Positions 1 through 33,924 of a DNA stretch of 36,050 nt are shown here, in pieces. A model generated the notes under the pieces. That model was not told the origin of the DNA and searched no databases. It was given only the letters and a program-made list of their open reading frames with translations. A program made the translations under genes and the position numbers. This DNA is from Selenomonadaceae bacterium (GTDB lineage: Bacteria; Bacillota; Negativicutes; Selenomonadales; Selenomonadaceae), in the NCBI GenBank assembly GCA_017535925.1, contig JAFXTD010000010.1, positions 1 through 36,050 on the forward strand. Reading direction: 5' to 3'. Positions within the stretch are counted from its first letter, which is position 1. Each line of letters opens with the position of its first letter.

Positions 1-138
1 CAGGGATGTTTTTATAGCCGGACTAACGCCCTTTTCTTTTGCTACTTTTCTTTTGGGCGCTGCAAAAGAAAAGTAGATTTAAAATATAAAAATTATGATT
101 CGTCAATCGGAGTCGCCATTCCAATTTACCAACACACC
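1..138 (-). repeat. Truncated copy F of the structured dispersed repeat family
   Basis: This is one end of an element that begins before the window. It ends with a terminal repeat that reads AGGGTGTGTTGGTAAATT on the minus strand and abuts CTAG at 139-142. The internal perfect palindrome (arms CTACTTTTCTTTTG and its complement) matches the element at 33632-33846, as does the A/T-rich stretch after it. No coding potential is seen. The 139-193 stretch next to it holds nothing recognisable. Confidence 0.75.
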
Positions 139-193
139 CTAGAAAAAAAATGACCCCTGACCACTTTTATCATTCGCTTACGAGCAAAGCGTC

Positions 194-2447: not shown

Positions 2448-2574
2448 AAGAAAAAACGCCTCGCGGGGGCGTTCGTCATTCATTGTTCGGAGGTTGCGAT
2501 TACCCGCAGCCCGATGTGCCCGCAAAAAAACTTCCGTGTTTTTGTTGCGGGCGGCGCGCGTCCATGCGCGCCTC
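2448..2574 (+). repeat. Copy A (right half) of the structured dispersed repeat
   Basis: It contains the CGCC-TCGC-GGGGGCG hairpin, a CCCGCAA...TTGCGGG hairpin with a TTCC loop, and a final GGCGCGC-gtccat-GCGCGCC hairpin. The same order and loops occur in copies B and C, but the stem bases differ in a compensated way. The first long hairpin is missing; the heptad palindrome stands in its place. It lies just upstream of clpX and may be in its 5' leader. Confidence 0.75.
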
Positions 2575-8497: not shown

Positions 8498-8761
8498 GTC
8501 CCCTTCTTTGCCAAAGAGTGGACACGCAGAACCGGCTGTCATGCTTGGAGTTTTTCGCTTCGATTGAACGTTTTAATGAATTTTATGTTTAGAATCTACT
8601 TTTTCTTTGCTTGTCCAAAGAAAAAGTAGCAAAAAGAAAAGACCCCTCGCAGGGGCGTTCGTCATTCATGATTCGGAGGTTGAGATTACCCGCAACCGCT
8701 CGGCCCGCAAAAAAAACATCCATGTTTTTATTGCGGGGGAGCCGCCGTCCATGGCGGCTCC
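8498..8761 (+). repeat. Copy B of the structured dispersed repeat (near full length)
   Basis: The copy shows a left segment CTTTGCCAAAGAGTGG, a perfect 14-bp-arm hairpin at 8596-8629 (CTACTTTTTCTTTG arms), a CCCC-TCGCA-GGGG hairpin, a CCCGCAA...TTGCGGG hairpin, and a final GGAGCCGCC-gtccat-GGCGGCTCC hairpin. It aligns along its whole length with copy C at 11884-12146 in the same orientation, and these two copies flank the histidine kinase gene. No ORF in it looks real. Confidence 0.85.
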
Positions 8762-8767
8762 TTTTTG
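8738..8767 (+). terminator. Terminator-like final hairpin of repeat copy B
   Basis: A 9-bp perfect stem GGAGCCGCC / GGCGGCTCC around GTCCAT is followed by TTTTT. It would end transcripts from ahbAB coming from the left. The convergent kinase gene stops just beyond it at 8770. Confidence 0.7.
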
Positions 8768-8769
8768 AT

Positions 8770-11700
8770 TTAATCTTTAATCAGTTCTTCAAGTGTTTTG
8801 TATAAATGTTCAGGGTCGGCGGGTTTCGTCAAGTGCGCGTTCATTCCTGCCTTCAAAGAGCGTTGAACGTCCTCGTCGAAGGCGTTGGCTGTCATTGCGA
8901 TTATCGGAACTCGTTTGGCGTCGGGGTGATTCAATTTTCTTATTGCCGTCGTTGCAGCCAAGCCGTCCATTACGGGCATGCGAATATCCATTAAAACCGC
9001 GTCGTAATATCTTTCGGGCGACGCCGCAAATTTATCGACGGCTATCTGTCCGTTTTCTGCCAAGTCTGCTTCCATGCCGCGCATTTCCAAAATCATCATC
9101 ATTATCTCGGCGTTGACCGGCATGTCTTCCGCGACCAATATCCGTCGTCCTTCCAAGTCAACTTTCTTTTTCTCCGGCAGAAGTTTTTGTTTCCGATTGA
9201 AGGCTTGGCGGAATTCGTAAAGCACGTTCGACGACGAAAGAGGTTTTGCCATGAAGGTATCGACGCCCGCTTCTTTTGCTTTGTCTTCAACCTCGTACCA
9301 GTCGTAAGCCGTCAGCACGATTACCGCCGTTTCCTCGCCCAAAAGCTCTCGGATATCGCGTGTCAATTCTATGCCATCTTTTTCGGGCATGAGCCAATCA
9401 ACTAAAATTAAGTTGTAGTCTTCGCGCCGCGCATGTCGTAATTTTATTTGCTCCAATGCCTCCACGCCGCCGCTGCTCGTATCTGCTTCTATGCCCACTT
9501 CCTGCAAGACAGACTTTGCATGTTCGCGCGCCAATTCCTCGTCGTCGATTATCAGCACTTTGAAATCTTGAGGACGCATTTCGCAAGTCTCGCCCGATTC
9601 GCTGCGCACAGAATCTTTAAGCGGCACGTTCACGACAAATTCCGTTCCGACACCTTTTTCCGAATTGATTTCTATCGTTCCGTTCATGATGTCGATTATG
9701 TTTTTGGTTATCGCCAAGCCCAAACCCGAACCGCCGTAGCGTGAGGTCGTCGTATCGTCTTCTTGGCTGAAGGCGTCGAAAATTTTCGGCAGATATTTTT
9801 TGTCAATGCCAATGCCCGTATCTTTAATCGTGAAACGGAAATTGGATTGCCCGTCGAATTGGGAAGTGCATTCGATTATCAACGTGACAGAGCCGCGTTC
9901 CGTGAACTTGATGGCATTGCCCAAGATATTCAAAAGCACTTGCTCCAACTTCGCGTCGTCGCCTATGTAATATTTGCCGATGTCACCGACTATCTCGCAA
10001 TTATAAGTCAAGCCTTTGTCTTTGCATTGCTCGTCGATTATCGAATTGATTTGATAAACGAACGAGGTGAAATAAAATTCCTCGTTGCGAAGCGTCATGC
10101 GTCCGCTCTCAATTCGGCTCATGTCGAGGATGTCATTTATTATCGTCAAGAGGTAGCGGGCGCTGGATCCGATTTTTTCGAGGTAACCTTTCAGCGTCGG
10201 CGTCAAGTCTTTGTCGTGCAGGGCGATGTTGTCCAAGCCGATAATCGCGTTCATGGGCGTGCGTATCTCGTGGCTCATGCGCGAAAGGAAAGCTGTCTTG
10301 GCAACGTTTGCTTGCTTGGCAACCGTCAACGCCTCACGCAACCTTTCGTTCTGTTCAGTTTGCTTGCGCTGAATTGCGGTCGTGTCGCTCTTGAGCAGGA
10401 TAAAGAAATCGGCTCGCGGGTCTATCGTGTAGAAGTCGAATCGCTTATAAAAAATTTCGCCGCCGATTTTGCAAGTGATGTTCACGACGTAAGGCTCCGA
10501 CTTTTTAATTTCATTGCGAACAGTCGACAAACTCAATTCCTCAAGGCGATTGTCCTCCGTCATGACGGGTTGCACTTGATTTTTCAAATATTCTTCGTAA
10601 CGACCTTCGCGGGTCACGGGGAAGATTGAACCTTTGCCGATAAGAGCGGCGTCGCCGACAACCACGCTGTACTTGTCGTTCACGAGGTAAGCTACCATGT
10701 CGAATTGCCGCGCCAAAATTTTATCAAGCAGAGCACCTTCGACTTTCTCTTTGCCGGCTTCCTGTTCCGAAATGAAAATGATTATGTCGTTGCTAATCGG
10801 GTGACGCGTGAAGACCGCCCGATAGTTCACGTAGCAATAATGCCCGTCGCGCCGCCGTGAAAACAAATACATTGTCAAGCTTGTTTCGCCGCGTGCGAAG
10901 CGGGCTTTAATTTTTTCGGCGTCAAACATTTCGACGAATAACTTTTGCTCTTCCTCTATCGGATAATTTTTCGCCCGCAACTTTATCAGCTCGGAGTAGG
11001 GGCGTATCACCGAATCCGTCCCGAACAAGTCGCGCCCTTGAACGTCTTCCACTTTGTTTCTCGTCAAGTTGGCTCTCAACATTGAAAGCGTCCGTTCGTT
11101 TGCGCGATAGAAATTGTCGCCTATGCTCATGTAAGTTAATTGCAAACGCCGTTCATAAACTTTAATCGAAGTCACGTCGAAGAAAGTGCAATAGACGTAA
11201 TGTTCGCCGAAGTCGTCTATGAACGTGTGATTGACGTTGCACCAGATGATCTCGCCCTTAGCCGTCGTCATCCGAATTGTCAAATCTTTGGTGCTGTCTT
11301 CGGAAGTGCGTCGCCTCAACATGCGTTTGACAGCAAGGCGGTCGTCGGCGTGCGTGAAAGCGATTACTCCGTTTTGATTCAAAGTTCGCAGGGCTTCCTC
11401 GACACTGCACTGCATGAGCTTGGCGAAAGCCTTCGACACAAAAACTGCCTCGAATTGGGCGTAGGTCTTCTCGCGCAGGAGAACCGTCGAGCCTTCCGTT
11501 TGGCGTATCGTTTTGAGGAATTGTTTGCGTGCAATTTTCTTTTCGTCCTCTGCAATGTTTATCACTGCGAAGCCGATATAAGGAGCGGGCACGTCTTCCA
11601 GCTGCGTCTTCATGAATTTTCGATTGTCTATCAGTTCACTCACAAGTGCTCCCGTAAAATCCGTTTTGCCCGTCAGCCGCTTGAATGGCTCATTACCGAA

Positions 11701-11883: not shown

Positions 11884-12146
11884 TCCCCGTCTTTGCCAAA
11901 GAGTGGGCACGCAGAACCGGCTGTGCTTGTCGGAGTTCCTCACTTCGATTGAGCGTTGTAATGACTTTTATTTTTTAAATCTACTTTTTCTTTGCGTGCC
12001 CAAAGAAAAAGTAGCAAAAAGAAAAGGCCCCTCGCGGGGGCGTTCGTCTTTCATGATTCAGAGGTTGAGGTTACCCGCAACCGCTCGTCCCGCAAAAAAA
12101 ACATCCATGTTTTTATTGCGGGGGAGCCGCCGTCCATGGCGGCTCC
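11884..12146 (+). repeat. Copy C of the structured dispersed repeat (near full length)
   Basis: It has the same orientation and order of parts as copy B: the CTTTGCCAAAGAGTGG segment, the 14-bp-arm hairpin at 11981-12014, the CCCC-TCGC-GGGG hairpin, the CCCGCAA hairpin and the GGAGCCGCC-gtccat-GGCGGCTCC hairpin at 12123-12146. No T tract follows the last stem here. It lies directly upstream of the kinase and downstream of the P-loop/Asp23 gene. Confidence 0.85.
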
Positions 12147-23145: not shown

Positions 23146-23278
23146 ACCGTCTTTGCAAAGAGTGAGCTTCTCCCATTTTCTTTTGCTGCGCCCAAACAAA
23201 GTGGTCAGTGGTCAGAGTTTTTTTCTAATCACTAACCACTAACCACTAATCACTAAATTGTGCGGCCGGGTTTTCATT
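23146..23278 (+). repeat. Degenerate copy G of the structured repeat with heptads inside
   Basis: The left end (CCGTCTTTGCAAAGAGTG) matches the left ends of copies B and C. The right end (TGTGCGGCCGGGTTTTCA) matches the inner right part of the element at 33632-33846 read on its minus strand. The hairpin core is missing; positions 23201-23257 instead hold heptad repeats AGTGGTC and ACTAACC/ACTAATC as imperfect inverted arms. Confidence 0.6.
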
Positions 23279-26055: not shown

Positions 26056-26240
26056 GGAGCCGTCATGGATGACGGCTCCCCACGCCGCACTGAAACAGGA
26101 TGTTTCTGCGGCGCGCCCCCGCGAGGGGTCTTTTCTTTTTGCTACTTTTTCTTTGGACAAGCAAAGAAAAAGTAGAAGAAAAACATAAAAATCATTAAAC
26201 GTCAAATCGAAGTGAAAAACTTCCGCAGTGACGAGTTGTC
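26056..26240 (-). repeat. Copy D of the structured dispersed repeat
   Basis: Read on the minus strand it has the same 14-bp-arm hairpin as copy B, then the GACCCCTCGC-GGGGG hairpin. A third stem (CGCCGCAGAAACA-tcc-TGTTTC...TGCGGCG) and a final GGAGCCGTCA-tcca-TGACGGCTCC stem follow. The middle ~55 bases of copies B and C are absent. It ends 45 bases before the M48 start and may be in its 5' leader. The rest of the 26012-26502 gap holds only the ompH promoter. Confidence 0.82.
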
Positions 26241-26970: not shown

Positions 26971-26974
26971 TCAG

Positions 26975-27052
26975 CGGTTAGTGGTTAGTGGTTAGTGGTT
27001 AGTGGCTAGAAAAATTCTAATCACTAATCACTAATCACTAATCACTTTTTTT
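26975..27052 (+). repeat. Inverted heptad array forming a ~30-bp RNA hairpin
   Basis: Four tandem GGTTAGT units are followed by AAAAATT and four tandem CTAATCA units, then a T tract. Pairing the arms gives a stem of about 30 bases with four G-U wobbles and one C-A mismatch in the plus-strand RNA. The minus strand would have A-C mismatches there. It could act as terminator or attenuator between the first OmpH gene and the coiled-coil gene. Confidence 0.8.
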
Positions 27053-29682: not shown

Positions 29683-30063
29683 ATGAAGAAATTTTTGATT
29701 GCAGCTGCGGCGACTCTGATTATCTTCGGCGGGCAAGTCGAGGCGGCTCCCGCTGACAATTTGAACGCAGAAATTGAGACGCAGGATATGGGCACGAGTA
29801 AATGGGCGAATTTCAGAGACAAGTATATTCTTAACCGCGAAACCGAAAACGAACGCCGCGACCGTAAAGATTGGGAACGTCAATACCGTAAAGATTGGGA
29901 ACGTCGGCACAGAGATTATCCGCCTCCTCCGCCGCCTCACTATCGCGACGGGCATCCTCATTATCCTCCTCCTCCGCCACCACCGCCGCCTCGTTATCGC
30001 GACGGACGTCCTCATTATCCGCCTCCGCCTCCTCCGGGTCCGCCTCCTCCGCGCTATCGTTAA
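29683..30063 (+). CDS. Small secreted Pro/Arg/His/Tyr-rich repeat protein
   Basis: This 126-aa protein has a signal peptide (about 1-22, ending VEA) and a mixed segment DKYILNRETENERRDRKDWE. A charged repeat RKDWERQYRKDWERRHRDY follows, then two copies of a YRDG(H/R)PHYPPPPPP block with polyproline runs up to nine. ATG 29683 is chosen over the in-frame 29674 start because AAAGGAGGT lies 8 bases upstream of it. I do not recognise a family. It could be a cell-wall or surface protein, or a metal- or polyanion-binding spacer. Followed by a terminator. Confidence 0.65.
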   Translation: MKKFLIAAAATLIIFGGQVEAAPADNLNAEIETQDMGTSKWANFRDKYILNRETENERRDRKDWERQYRKDWERRHRDYPPPPPPHYRDGHPHYPPPPPPPPPRYRDGRPHYPPPPPPGPPPPRYR

Positions 30064-33557: not shown

Positions 33558-33600
33558 TTCATGCCCGCTTGCCCAAAATAAAAATCTCTTGTAAAATGAT

Positions 33601-33631
33601 TAGGAACTGGTAAATAGGAACTGGGAACTAG
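33601..33631. repeat. Left half of a heptad unit interrupted by an insertion
   Basis: This stretch matches 2378-2408 with one difference seen by eye. It ends in CTAG (33628-33631), where element E begins. Confidence 0.8.
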
Positions 33632-33846
33632 GGTCTGTTGGTAAATTAAAAAGCAGCGGTTGGTGAAAACCCGGCCGCACATGGACGTGCGGCCGCCGCG
33701 ACTTAAAACCTGGAAGGTTTTATAGCGGTCAACGCCCTTTTCTTTTGCTACTTTTCTTTTGGGCGCCGCAAAAGAAAAGTAGATTTAAAATATAAAAATC
33801 ATTGAAACGCTCAATCGCAGCCGCTGATTCAATTTACCAACAACCC
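33632..33846 (-). mobile_element. 215-bp MITE-like element E with terminal inverted repeats
   Basis: The ends are imperfect inverted repeats (GGTCTGTTGGTAAATT and, from the right, GGGTTGTTGGTAAATT) extending inward to AGCAGCGG / TCAGCGGCT. CTAG is duplicated at 33628-33631 and 33847-33850. Read on the minus strand the inside has the family's long hairpin (33748-33782), an AAAACC-ttcc-GGTTTT hairpin and a GCGGCCGCAC-gtccat-GTGCGGCCG hairpin. There is no transposase and no credible ORF, so it would need to be mobilised in trans. The target-site logic resembles IS5-like elements that use CTAG-type sites, but the family is not assigned. Confidence 0.8.
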
Positions 33847-33899
33847 CTAGTAGGGATTAGGAAAAAGTCTAGTTCCTGGTTCTTGGTTCCCGGTTCCTA
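33847..33899. repeat. Right half of the interrupted heptad unit
   Basis: Starts with the second CTAG, then TAGGGATTAG exactly as after CTAG at 2405-2408, then GTTCCTG/GTTCTTG/GTTCCCG/GTTCCTA heptads. It ends 25 bases before hisZ. Confidence 0.8.
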
Positions 33900-33924
33900 A
33901 AAATCGACCGAAGGGAGATTTTTT

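Follow-up and report, generated by a model that had tools for sequence, protein, structure and literature searches.

Does a family of hairpin-rich repeats that recurs seven times in one contig of a draft genome (2.59 Mb in 76 contigs, from a Selenomonadaceae bacterium) consist of decaying copies, or has its folded form been kept by selection? The latter had been proposed in a sequence-only reading of the window, by which we mean the whole 36,050-nucleotide stretch analysed here, on the ground that hairpin arms change together while loops are conserved. The occurrence of the same core in distant bacteria argues for a structured element not yet described, and against junk.

Copies in the window and in the host genome

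All seven copies (A to G) are present in the sequence at the places reported for them, with two corrections to the list: copy E is longer than given when its terminal inverted repeats (TIRs) are included, and copy A is without the core described below. Copy B (8498-8761, folding strand inferred to be minus) is of the type that has no TIRs and lies between the stops of two convergent genes. Its core occupies 8596-8646 on the minus strand, with the long stem at 8596-8609/8616-8629, a third strand at 8631-8639 and a loop-complementary segment right after it; the core model matches it with 75.1 bits, B itself being among the 19 sequences used to build that model. The third hairpin of B (8704-8737) has the tip ATGGAT on the minus strand, and the last hairpin (8738-8761) has on the same strand the loop ATGGAC, an AYGGAY sequence. 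Copy C (11884-12146, minus strand, core 11981-12031) is 91% like B over 263 bases. Copy A (2448-2574, minus strand) retains only the AYGGAY half, the core being replaced by a palindromic minisatellite at about 2378-2446. Copy D (26056-26240, plus strand) is inverted relative to B, with its last hairpin at 26056-26079 and its core at 26125-26175. Copy E (33629-33849, plus strand) is a complete miniature element with IS5-like TIRs at 33629-33647 and 33831-33849, the last hairpin at 33672-33695 and the core at 33731-33782; copy F (1-142, plus strand, core 25-76) is an element of the same type truncated by the contig start. Copy G (23146-23278, no strand given) is a decayed remnant with a minisatellite insert in its middle (23223-23254).

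Copies B, C and D have CTACTTTTTCTTTG as the arm of the long hairpin, copies E and F CTACTTTTCTTTTG, each with a perfect partner, and the stems and loops of the last hairpins are likewise as they had been described; copies E and D lie on the opposite strand, and their plus-strand loops are ATGGAC and ATGGAT. What had been taken as one family is spread over two carriers, one with IS5-like ends (E and F) and one without (A, B, C and D). In searches of the host genome B was matched 53 times, E 84 times and A 11 times, some of these matches being palindrome echoes of one place, and 58 distinct copies with an exact core were counted in the genome stretches examined. Several contigs start inside a copy, and assembly breaks of this kind may conceal further ones. 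RNA folding z-scores are -4.3 for B (8498-8775, plus strand) and -9.9 for E (33600-33900, minus strand), both with flanks included. At a distance from these copies, positions 29919-30026 of the window hold a 54-base tandem repeat (87% alike) with ORFs overlapping on both strands.

An apparent three-strand core

The long hairpin is apparently one part of a three-strand core, in which the loop would pair with bases downstream to form a pseudoknot and a third segment mirrors the purine arm of the stem. On B's strand the core reads CTAC-TTTTTCTTT-G, the loop, C-AAAGAAAAA-GTAG, C-AAAAAGAAA and then the loop-complementary bases. The arms and the third segment vary jointly (5+3, 4+3, 3+4, 4+4, 3+3 and TCTC variants), and the third segment stays the mirror of the purine arm.

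To a set of 162 Selenomonadaceae/Selenomonadales cores we added an outside set comprising 108 of the 122 core-model matches, giving 270 cores in total, 172 of them distinct. The outside set was found with model R1, which pairs the long stem only, and includes L262 from the host's own family (genome G290) and two cores from a viral contig (L250 and L253); the Selenomonadaceae set came largely from an exact-palindrome scan, to be read as at least that many, and from a pattern requiring six purines after the stem. An exact seven-base mirror occurs in 87 of the 103 distinct outside cores (permuted mean 49, maximum 60) and in 68 of the 69 distinct Selenomonadaceae/Selenomonadales cores (permuted mean 50, maximum 55). 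Among the outside cores, 62 fit the mirror only, one a direct repeat only, 25 both and 15 neither; a stricter parser, by which 19 of the 270 cores were left unread, classed the asymmetric outside arms as 56 mirror, two direct and 19 neither, several of the last being parser artefacts. A loop-downstream helix of at least four pairs is found in 57 of 78 outside cores and 50 of 68 in the Selenomonadaceae set (permuted means 15 and 17, maxima 26 and 29).

Covariation of the stems and the third strand

From the 103 distinct outside cores, those with a six-base loop and fixed spacing were kept as the ungapped alignment A2, whose 65 rows come from 35 genomes or records and, since copies share ancestry, do not count as independent events. 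For the long stem and the loop-downstream stem together, 15 of 19 pairs changed on both sides, with a covariation score of 0.439 against 0.127 in shuffled alignments and at most 0.122 in slid ones. Taken singly, the long stem has 10 of 14 pairs changed on both sides and 96.4% of its cells paired, and the loop-downstream stem 5 of 5 and 80.9%, its outermost pair (columns 16-49) being formed in only 18 of the 65 rows. Further pair types in both stems numbered 33 against 30.0 in shuffles, a value reached by 61 of 500.

The third strand was assessed at four of its eight positions, the rest hardly varying. All four parallel pairs changed on both sides, and the score was 0.418 against 0.207 shuffled and at most 0.147 slid; further pair types of the third strand were not above shuffles (5 versus 6.3). 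An antiparallel pairing of the third segment with the 5' arm, as in strand exchange, was rejected in register 0, where no pair changed on both sides. Register +1 stands above shuffles (93.5% paired, score 0.218) because most rows cannot separate it from the parallel rule, but it fails in all 12 discriminating rows. The parallel rule holds in those 12 of 65 rows, from 9 genomes or records, and the reverse is seen in no row; as exceptions, two rows fit antiparallel register 0 only and three fit none.

The base found in the third strand depends on the stem pair that it faces. In A2, a T-A pair is given A in 439 of 442 cases and a C-G pair G in 66 of 69; an A-T inversion is given C in 4 of 4 (three genomes), which is G on the opposite strand, and a G-C inversion, seen in one genome only, A in one case and G in three. 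Both main rules are obeyed throughout 53 of the 65 rows, with at least one exception in the other 12; two Bacteroidota rows (L345 and L348), in which the triple run is one base longer and out of register, were counted against the rule. The code read on the opposite strand is U.A-U, C.G-C and G.U-A, which we take to be the pyrimidine-motif code. The triplex code comprises T.AT, C.GC, T.CG and G.TA. On the AYGGAY strand the core fits a major-groove triple helix of U.A-U and C.G-C triples, and a covarying second stem joined to a third strand that follows the triplex code would place it, as far as its sequence tells, among the H-type triple-helix pseudoknots.

It had been claimed that stem substitutions are paired more often than chance would have it. 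This is borne out in the wider alignment, by the last hairpins of the host genome (below) and by the 65 cores from 35 outside genomes or records; the shuffled and slid controls argue against chance as the source of the pairing. A search of the genome and its relatives with a covariance model had also been suggested, and the core model recovered cores beyond the host family, with covariation.

The folding strand

Paired stem changes alone are not decisive, because template switching that perfects palindromes could yield them. Loop-downstream pairing and a mirrored third strand are not expected from template switching, so a folded single strand is indicated, and the claim of selection on a folded RNA or single-stranded DNA (ssDNA) finds its support in these two features, most of all in the parallel third strand.

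With moderate confidence, the strand opposite to B is taken as the folding strand, mainly for the triple code and the AYGGAY loops, and we lean, not strongly, towards RNA of that strand rather than ssDNA. The argument from wobble pairs is mixed. Among non-Watson-Crick pairs of the long stem on B's strand, A.C outnumbers G.T by 21 to 2 in A2 (14 and 2 genomes or records) and by 24 to 8 in the wider outside set, A.C corresponding to G.U when the other strand is read. In the short stem, A2 has 8 A.C versus 5 G.T, but the count is 0 versus 5 inside otherwise formed helices, and the last hairpins of the host genome have two of each. Along the folding strand come first one side of the short stem, then the third strand, one side of the long stem, the other side of the short stem and finally the other side of the long stem; the loop across the short stem would be 1-3 nt on that strand, which is tight by the loop-crossing limits of pseudoknots. 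As C.G-C triples require protonated C (PMC3711454, excerpted text), the stability of the core should depend on pH. The copies in the host genome are not oriented with respect to flanking genes (18 versus 13 in same-direction gene pairs), and a 3'-UTR orientation was rejected on this gene context; their orientation relative to GC skew is likewise unbiased (19 of 48 positive, p = 0.19), on which an orientation by replication strand was rejected.

The AYGGAY hairpins and TwoAYGGAY

The last hairpin was found in 54 of the 58 host-genome copies (none in 4), and its loop is AYGGAY in 53 of the 54, on the strand opposite to B. Over its 21 distinct sequences, 93.6% of cells are paired, 8 of 9 pairs changed on both sides and the covariation score reaches 0.662, where shuffles give 0.190 and slid controls no more than 0.160; on two of the five measures shuffles came close, the pairs changed on both sides being matched by 52 of 500 and the further pair types by 56 of 500.

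An Rfam scan of the window returned nothing at the gathering threshold. Below it, TwoAYGGAY (RF01731), whose signature such loops are, matches the third and fourth hairpins of copy B with 35.6 bits, the cut-off being 43. This motif, which is treated in PMC4333381, PMC2864571 and PMC11701678, was proposed in the excerpted text of PMC4333381 to bind CsrA. Outside the genus it lies above the cut-off beside the core at L201 (56.7 bits), L244 (51.3) and L280 (60.6), the first two both in Pseudoalteromonas; in all three it is upstream of the core on the same strand, and at L201 the match extends into only about 11 bases of the core, its last 11. Among the 40 core loci of one scan set, TwoAYGGAY (E up to 0.01) matched only L244 and L280. 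The likeness thus lies in hairpins tipped with AYGGAY that directly precede the core on its own strand, whereas the window copies remain below the cut-off, the core also occurs without TwoAYGGAY, and neither the core nor a mobile repeat is mentioned in the excerpted texts of PMC4333381 and PMC2864571.

The host genome has one csrA gene. CsrA was not found in 11 of the 44 core-bearing genomes, namely 5 of 5 Bacteroidota, 5 of 38 Gammaproteobacteria and G290, which is 99% complete and of the same family as the host, the other absences coming without a completeness figure. CsrA is therefore unlikely as a general partner, given the five Bacteroidota hosts, and at most a partner in some hosts.

Distribution in other bacteria

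Copy B was matched (E <= 0.001) in 16 of 25 genomes of the genus, its own included, and in none of 16 from other families. An exact-palindrome scan of named genomes gave, among the matches listed, Quinella, other Selenomonadaceae/Selenomonadales, one Bacteroidetes and one Haemophilus record. With model R1 (E <= 1e-5) the core was found in 2 of 398 genomes of the host's phylum (own included), 38 of 274 sampled Gammaproteobacteria, the class of Haemophilus haemolyticus (centre genome counted), and 5 of 296 Bacteroidota (centre genome counted), counts that are likely lower bounds as these large scans used stricter filters and had few scored candidates. Named records with the core include Pseudoalteromonas, Aeromonas caviae, Ilyobacter and Paraburkholderia, three Paraburkholderia records alone holding it in at least 40 places; a BLAST listing adds Burkholderia and Pasteurella, with plasmid matches in both. 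At E up to 0.01, none of 20,395 E. coli records matched the gammaproteobacterial consensus.

Two core matches lie on a 43 kb IMG/VR viral contig (L200 10239-10289; G043), so that a virus or provirus can serve as a carrier of the element. In the records of four ssDNA phages (Microviridae/Gokushovirinae, L206-L209) the gap after VP4 holds a hairpin with a like stem and third segment; these hairpins have no loop-downstream stem and were left out of the family as a possible case of convergence.

In Gammaproteobacteria, the copies of a single genome mark out elements about 500-690 bases long, several of them with two inward-facing cores; exceptions are the close outward-facing pairs L202, L349 and L350 and the same-direction pairs L254, L256 and L305. 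Five wider inward-facing pairs (L281, L284, L290, L304 and L320), with cores 1.1-1.7 kb apart, enclose one or two ORFs and resemble gene cassettes with structured ends. An ion channel is encoded at L281 and, at L284, a DpnII/MboI-like nuclease akin to Aga_Helical-REase of PADLOC; the other proteins have no assignment, and no recombinase was detected by Pfam among the proteins of four of them (L281, L284, L290 and L304).

Mobile carriers and turnover

The ends of the type E element (copies E and F) are TAGGGGCTGTTGGTAAATT and AATTTACCAACAGCCCCTA. These terminal repeats have 188 matches genome-wide at up to two mismatches, a reversed control pattern having none. Of 32 end-bounded units examined, 23 contain an exact core and are 212-223 bases long, with one of 245. 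Matched TIRs at both ends were found for 22 type E core copies, 16 of which show YTA..TAR (TA) at both ends, a candidate target-site duplication. Element L078 251-1036 (786 bases) has type E ends and a 124-aa ORF with a DUF4096 match (PF13340, 2.5e-16), which is part of an IS4/5-type transposase; this ORF does not span the whole element, and a complete transposase was not seen in it. The type E copies are miniature elements that end like an IS5-family element of the same genome. Copies A, B, C and D, read in the sequence, have no TIRs of the type E kind.

Around copy B, the sister genome G1046 shares 95.1% identity across 8.3 kb to one side and 92.7% across 3.1 kb to the other, and comparison with it revealed turnover at single sites. 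Copy B is absent from G1046, where a different palindrome built from GGAATT-like units lies between the genes instead. G1046 has a core at site A, where the window has a GGAACTAG-type palindromic minisatellite; at site F its element is truncated directly after the core, and at site C synteny stops. Single copy sites are dispensable, because copy B is missing from G1046. We regard the carriers as mobile, and take both this mobility and the structure-preserving evolution of the core as established. Palindromic minisatellites with units of 7-8 bases (GGAACTAG, GGTTAGT and GGAATT types) are themselves dispersed, in the window at 2378-2446, 23223-23254, 26973-27046 and 33601-33631 and elsewhere at L084, L071 and L239; they interrupt or replace the core hairpin within elements, and one of them occupies B's place in G1046.

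What the fold may do

The explanation that we favour, tentatively and at a little under even confidence, is that the repeats are non-autonomous mobile elements with a strand-specific folded cargo, an RNA plug that would shield or tune read-through transcripts. It starts from the co-evolution of stems, loop-downstream pairing and mirrored third strand in Selenomonadaceae, Gammaproteobacteria and Bacteroidota. The folded molecule would be RNA produced by read-through from neighbouring genes, and its triple helix would act as a stable plug by which decay is slowed or the transcript is terminated or tuned; such a plug could make insertions tolerable and keep element-borne RNA abundant. The AYGGAY loops would bind CsrA only in hosts that have it, and the inward-facing pairs that cores often form in Gammaproteobacteria would place a folding form near the transcript 3' end whichever strand is transcribed. 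That the molecule is RNA rather than ssDNA, and that its role is protective or regulatory, we infer.

The main rival to an RNA plug is that the fold acts as ssDNA, a replication- or transposition-time substrate for a recombinase like IS200/IS605 ends or REP, in which RNA has no part. The carriers are mobile and dispersed, the inward-facing core pairs of Gammaproteobacteria sometimes flank one or two genes as element ends would, the wobble-pair support for RNA is mixed, and a parallel pyrimidine triplex also forms in DNA. Yet type E already has IS5-type ends, which transpose as double strands and can do so without an internal hairpin; the replication strand tends to set the orientation of ssDNA elements, whereas GC skew gave no bias, and the four wide pairs searched with Pfam encode no recombinase. 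On balance we consider the ssDNA reading unlikely, though it deserves more weight than the other alternatives. Rather less probable is a CsrA sponge, in which the elements are dispersed CsrA-binding RNAs of the TwoAYGGAY kind and the core merely stabilizes them. It would account for AYGGAY loops on one strand, for a TwoAYGGAY that adjoins the core in the same strand and order at L201, L244 and L280, and for the csrA gene of the host, and it agrees with the binding proposal in the excerpted text of PMC4333381; against it stand the 11 core-bearing genomes in which CsrA was not found, all five Bacteroidota among them, the majority of core loci without a TwoAYGGAY match, and the third hairpin of host-genome copies, which by eye often has no full AYGGAY loop.

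Two further explanations concern the palindromes themselves. Paired stem changes could be a mutational by-product of template switching on lagging-strand hairpins, without selection, as the great perfection of the long stem (96.4% of cells paired) and the replacement of the core at A, and of B in G1046, by other palindromic minisatellites might suggest. The mirror relation would then require parallel copying in the 87 outside cores and the 68 Selenomonadaceae/Selenomonadales cores that show it, and the AYGGAY loops (53 of 54) and the loop-downstream complementarity (57 of 78 and 50 of 68) would go unexplained; palindrome-perfecting mutation is largely refuted for the core by the mirror rule, and we hold template switching as the whole explanation to be very improbable, although it may still add to stem perfection. 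The repeats might instead be bidirectional transcription terminators or buffers between convergent genes, the setting in which B is found, with TTTTT after its last hairpin, and 45 of the 47 copies with an assigned position, among which 10 at stretch ends are not counted, lie between genes. However, the contexts given by a simple codon-score gene caller (18 + 13 tandem, 8 convergent, 6 divergent) resemble the background at the same loci (15 + 17, 9 and 6), a T-run directly after the hairpin is by eye inconsistent across copies, and neither the loops nor the third strand is explained; we give this idea the least credence of all.

The RNA plug can be carried into a bolder proposal, which we find somewhat doubtful. 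The elements would form a cross-phylum class of mobile elements with an encoded parallel major-groove triple helix, whose third strand tracks stem changes by the pyrimidine-motif code, with G opposite T-A inversions. Two inward-facing copies in many Gammaproteobacteria would bracket a short spacer or one or two genes, so that the RNA, whichever strand is transcribed, would end in one and the same protective triple helix, and the class would be a prokaryotic counterpart of eukaryotic transposon ENEs.

Relation to known systems

Triple-helix ENEs occur in transposable-element RNAs and in MALAT1 and are proposed to slow decay. The likeness would be that of a triple helix carried by the RNA of a mobile element; in contrast to ENEs, the core has no poly(A) capture, has a pseudoknot topology and is found in bacteria. 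The type E copies resemble IS5-family MITEs in their matched terminal repeats, in YTA..TAR at 16 of 22 and in a same-ended element with a DUF4096 piece, but differ in having a conserved structured domain inside, which is also found without these ends and in other phyla. To our knowledge, long regular triple helices in bacterial RNA are known mainly from riboswitches. Telomerase RNA, the guanidine-III riboswitch and the SAM-V riboswitch are close known systems. In the excerpted texts, the guanidine-III riboswitch (PMC5696562) has the strand order of the core, with a third strand in the groove of stem 2 between stems 1 and 2, and the SAM-V riboswitch (PMC6061858) likewise has this order. Unlike both, the core has a regular series of pyrimidine triples, about 7-9 in number and moving along with the stem, a very short loop across stem 1, multiple copies in mobile repeats and no known ligand core.

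Over the core, Rfam gave no family at cut-off in the window or, with laxer limits, at 48 loci, save the TwoAYGGAY overlap at L201; BjrC1505 spans B at chance level (26.4 bits, cut-off 50, E 0.38). Literature searches with core strings and keywords (triple helices, extragenic repeats, CsrA, Quinella) returned no description of the element. The longer gammaproteobacterial core strings had no occurrence there; the 14-letter arm GTTACTTTTCTTTG appears in a Pyrococcus paper, perhaps as a primer, and the short gammaproteobacterial string GTGCTTCTCGCC in mouse and receptor papers. The parts are of known kinds, and their combination looks new. Comparative genomics would give dozens of natural three-strand variants, a direct in vivo test of base-triple rules; TwoAYGGAY, an Rfam motif without assigned function, gains a neighbour and a mobile carrier, and the question of why a structured RNA should be selected inside miniature transposons becomes testable. 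A Paraburkholderia core pair (L205) is flanked by weak inverted matches to Bp1_684 (RF02421; 37.3 and 27.7 bits, cut-off 44), which touch the core ends.
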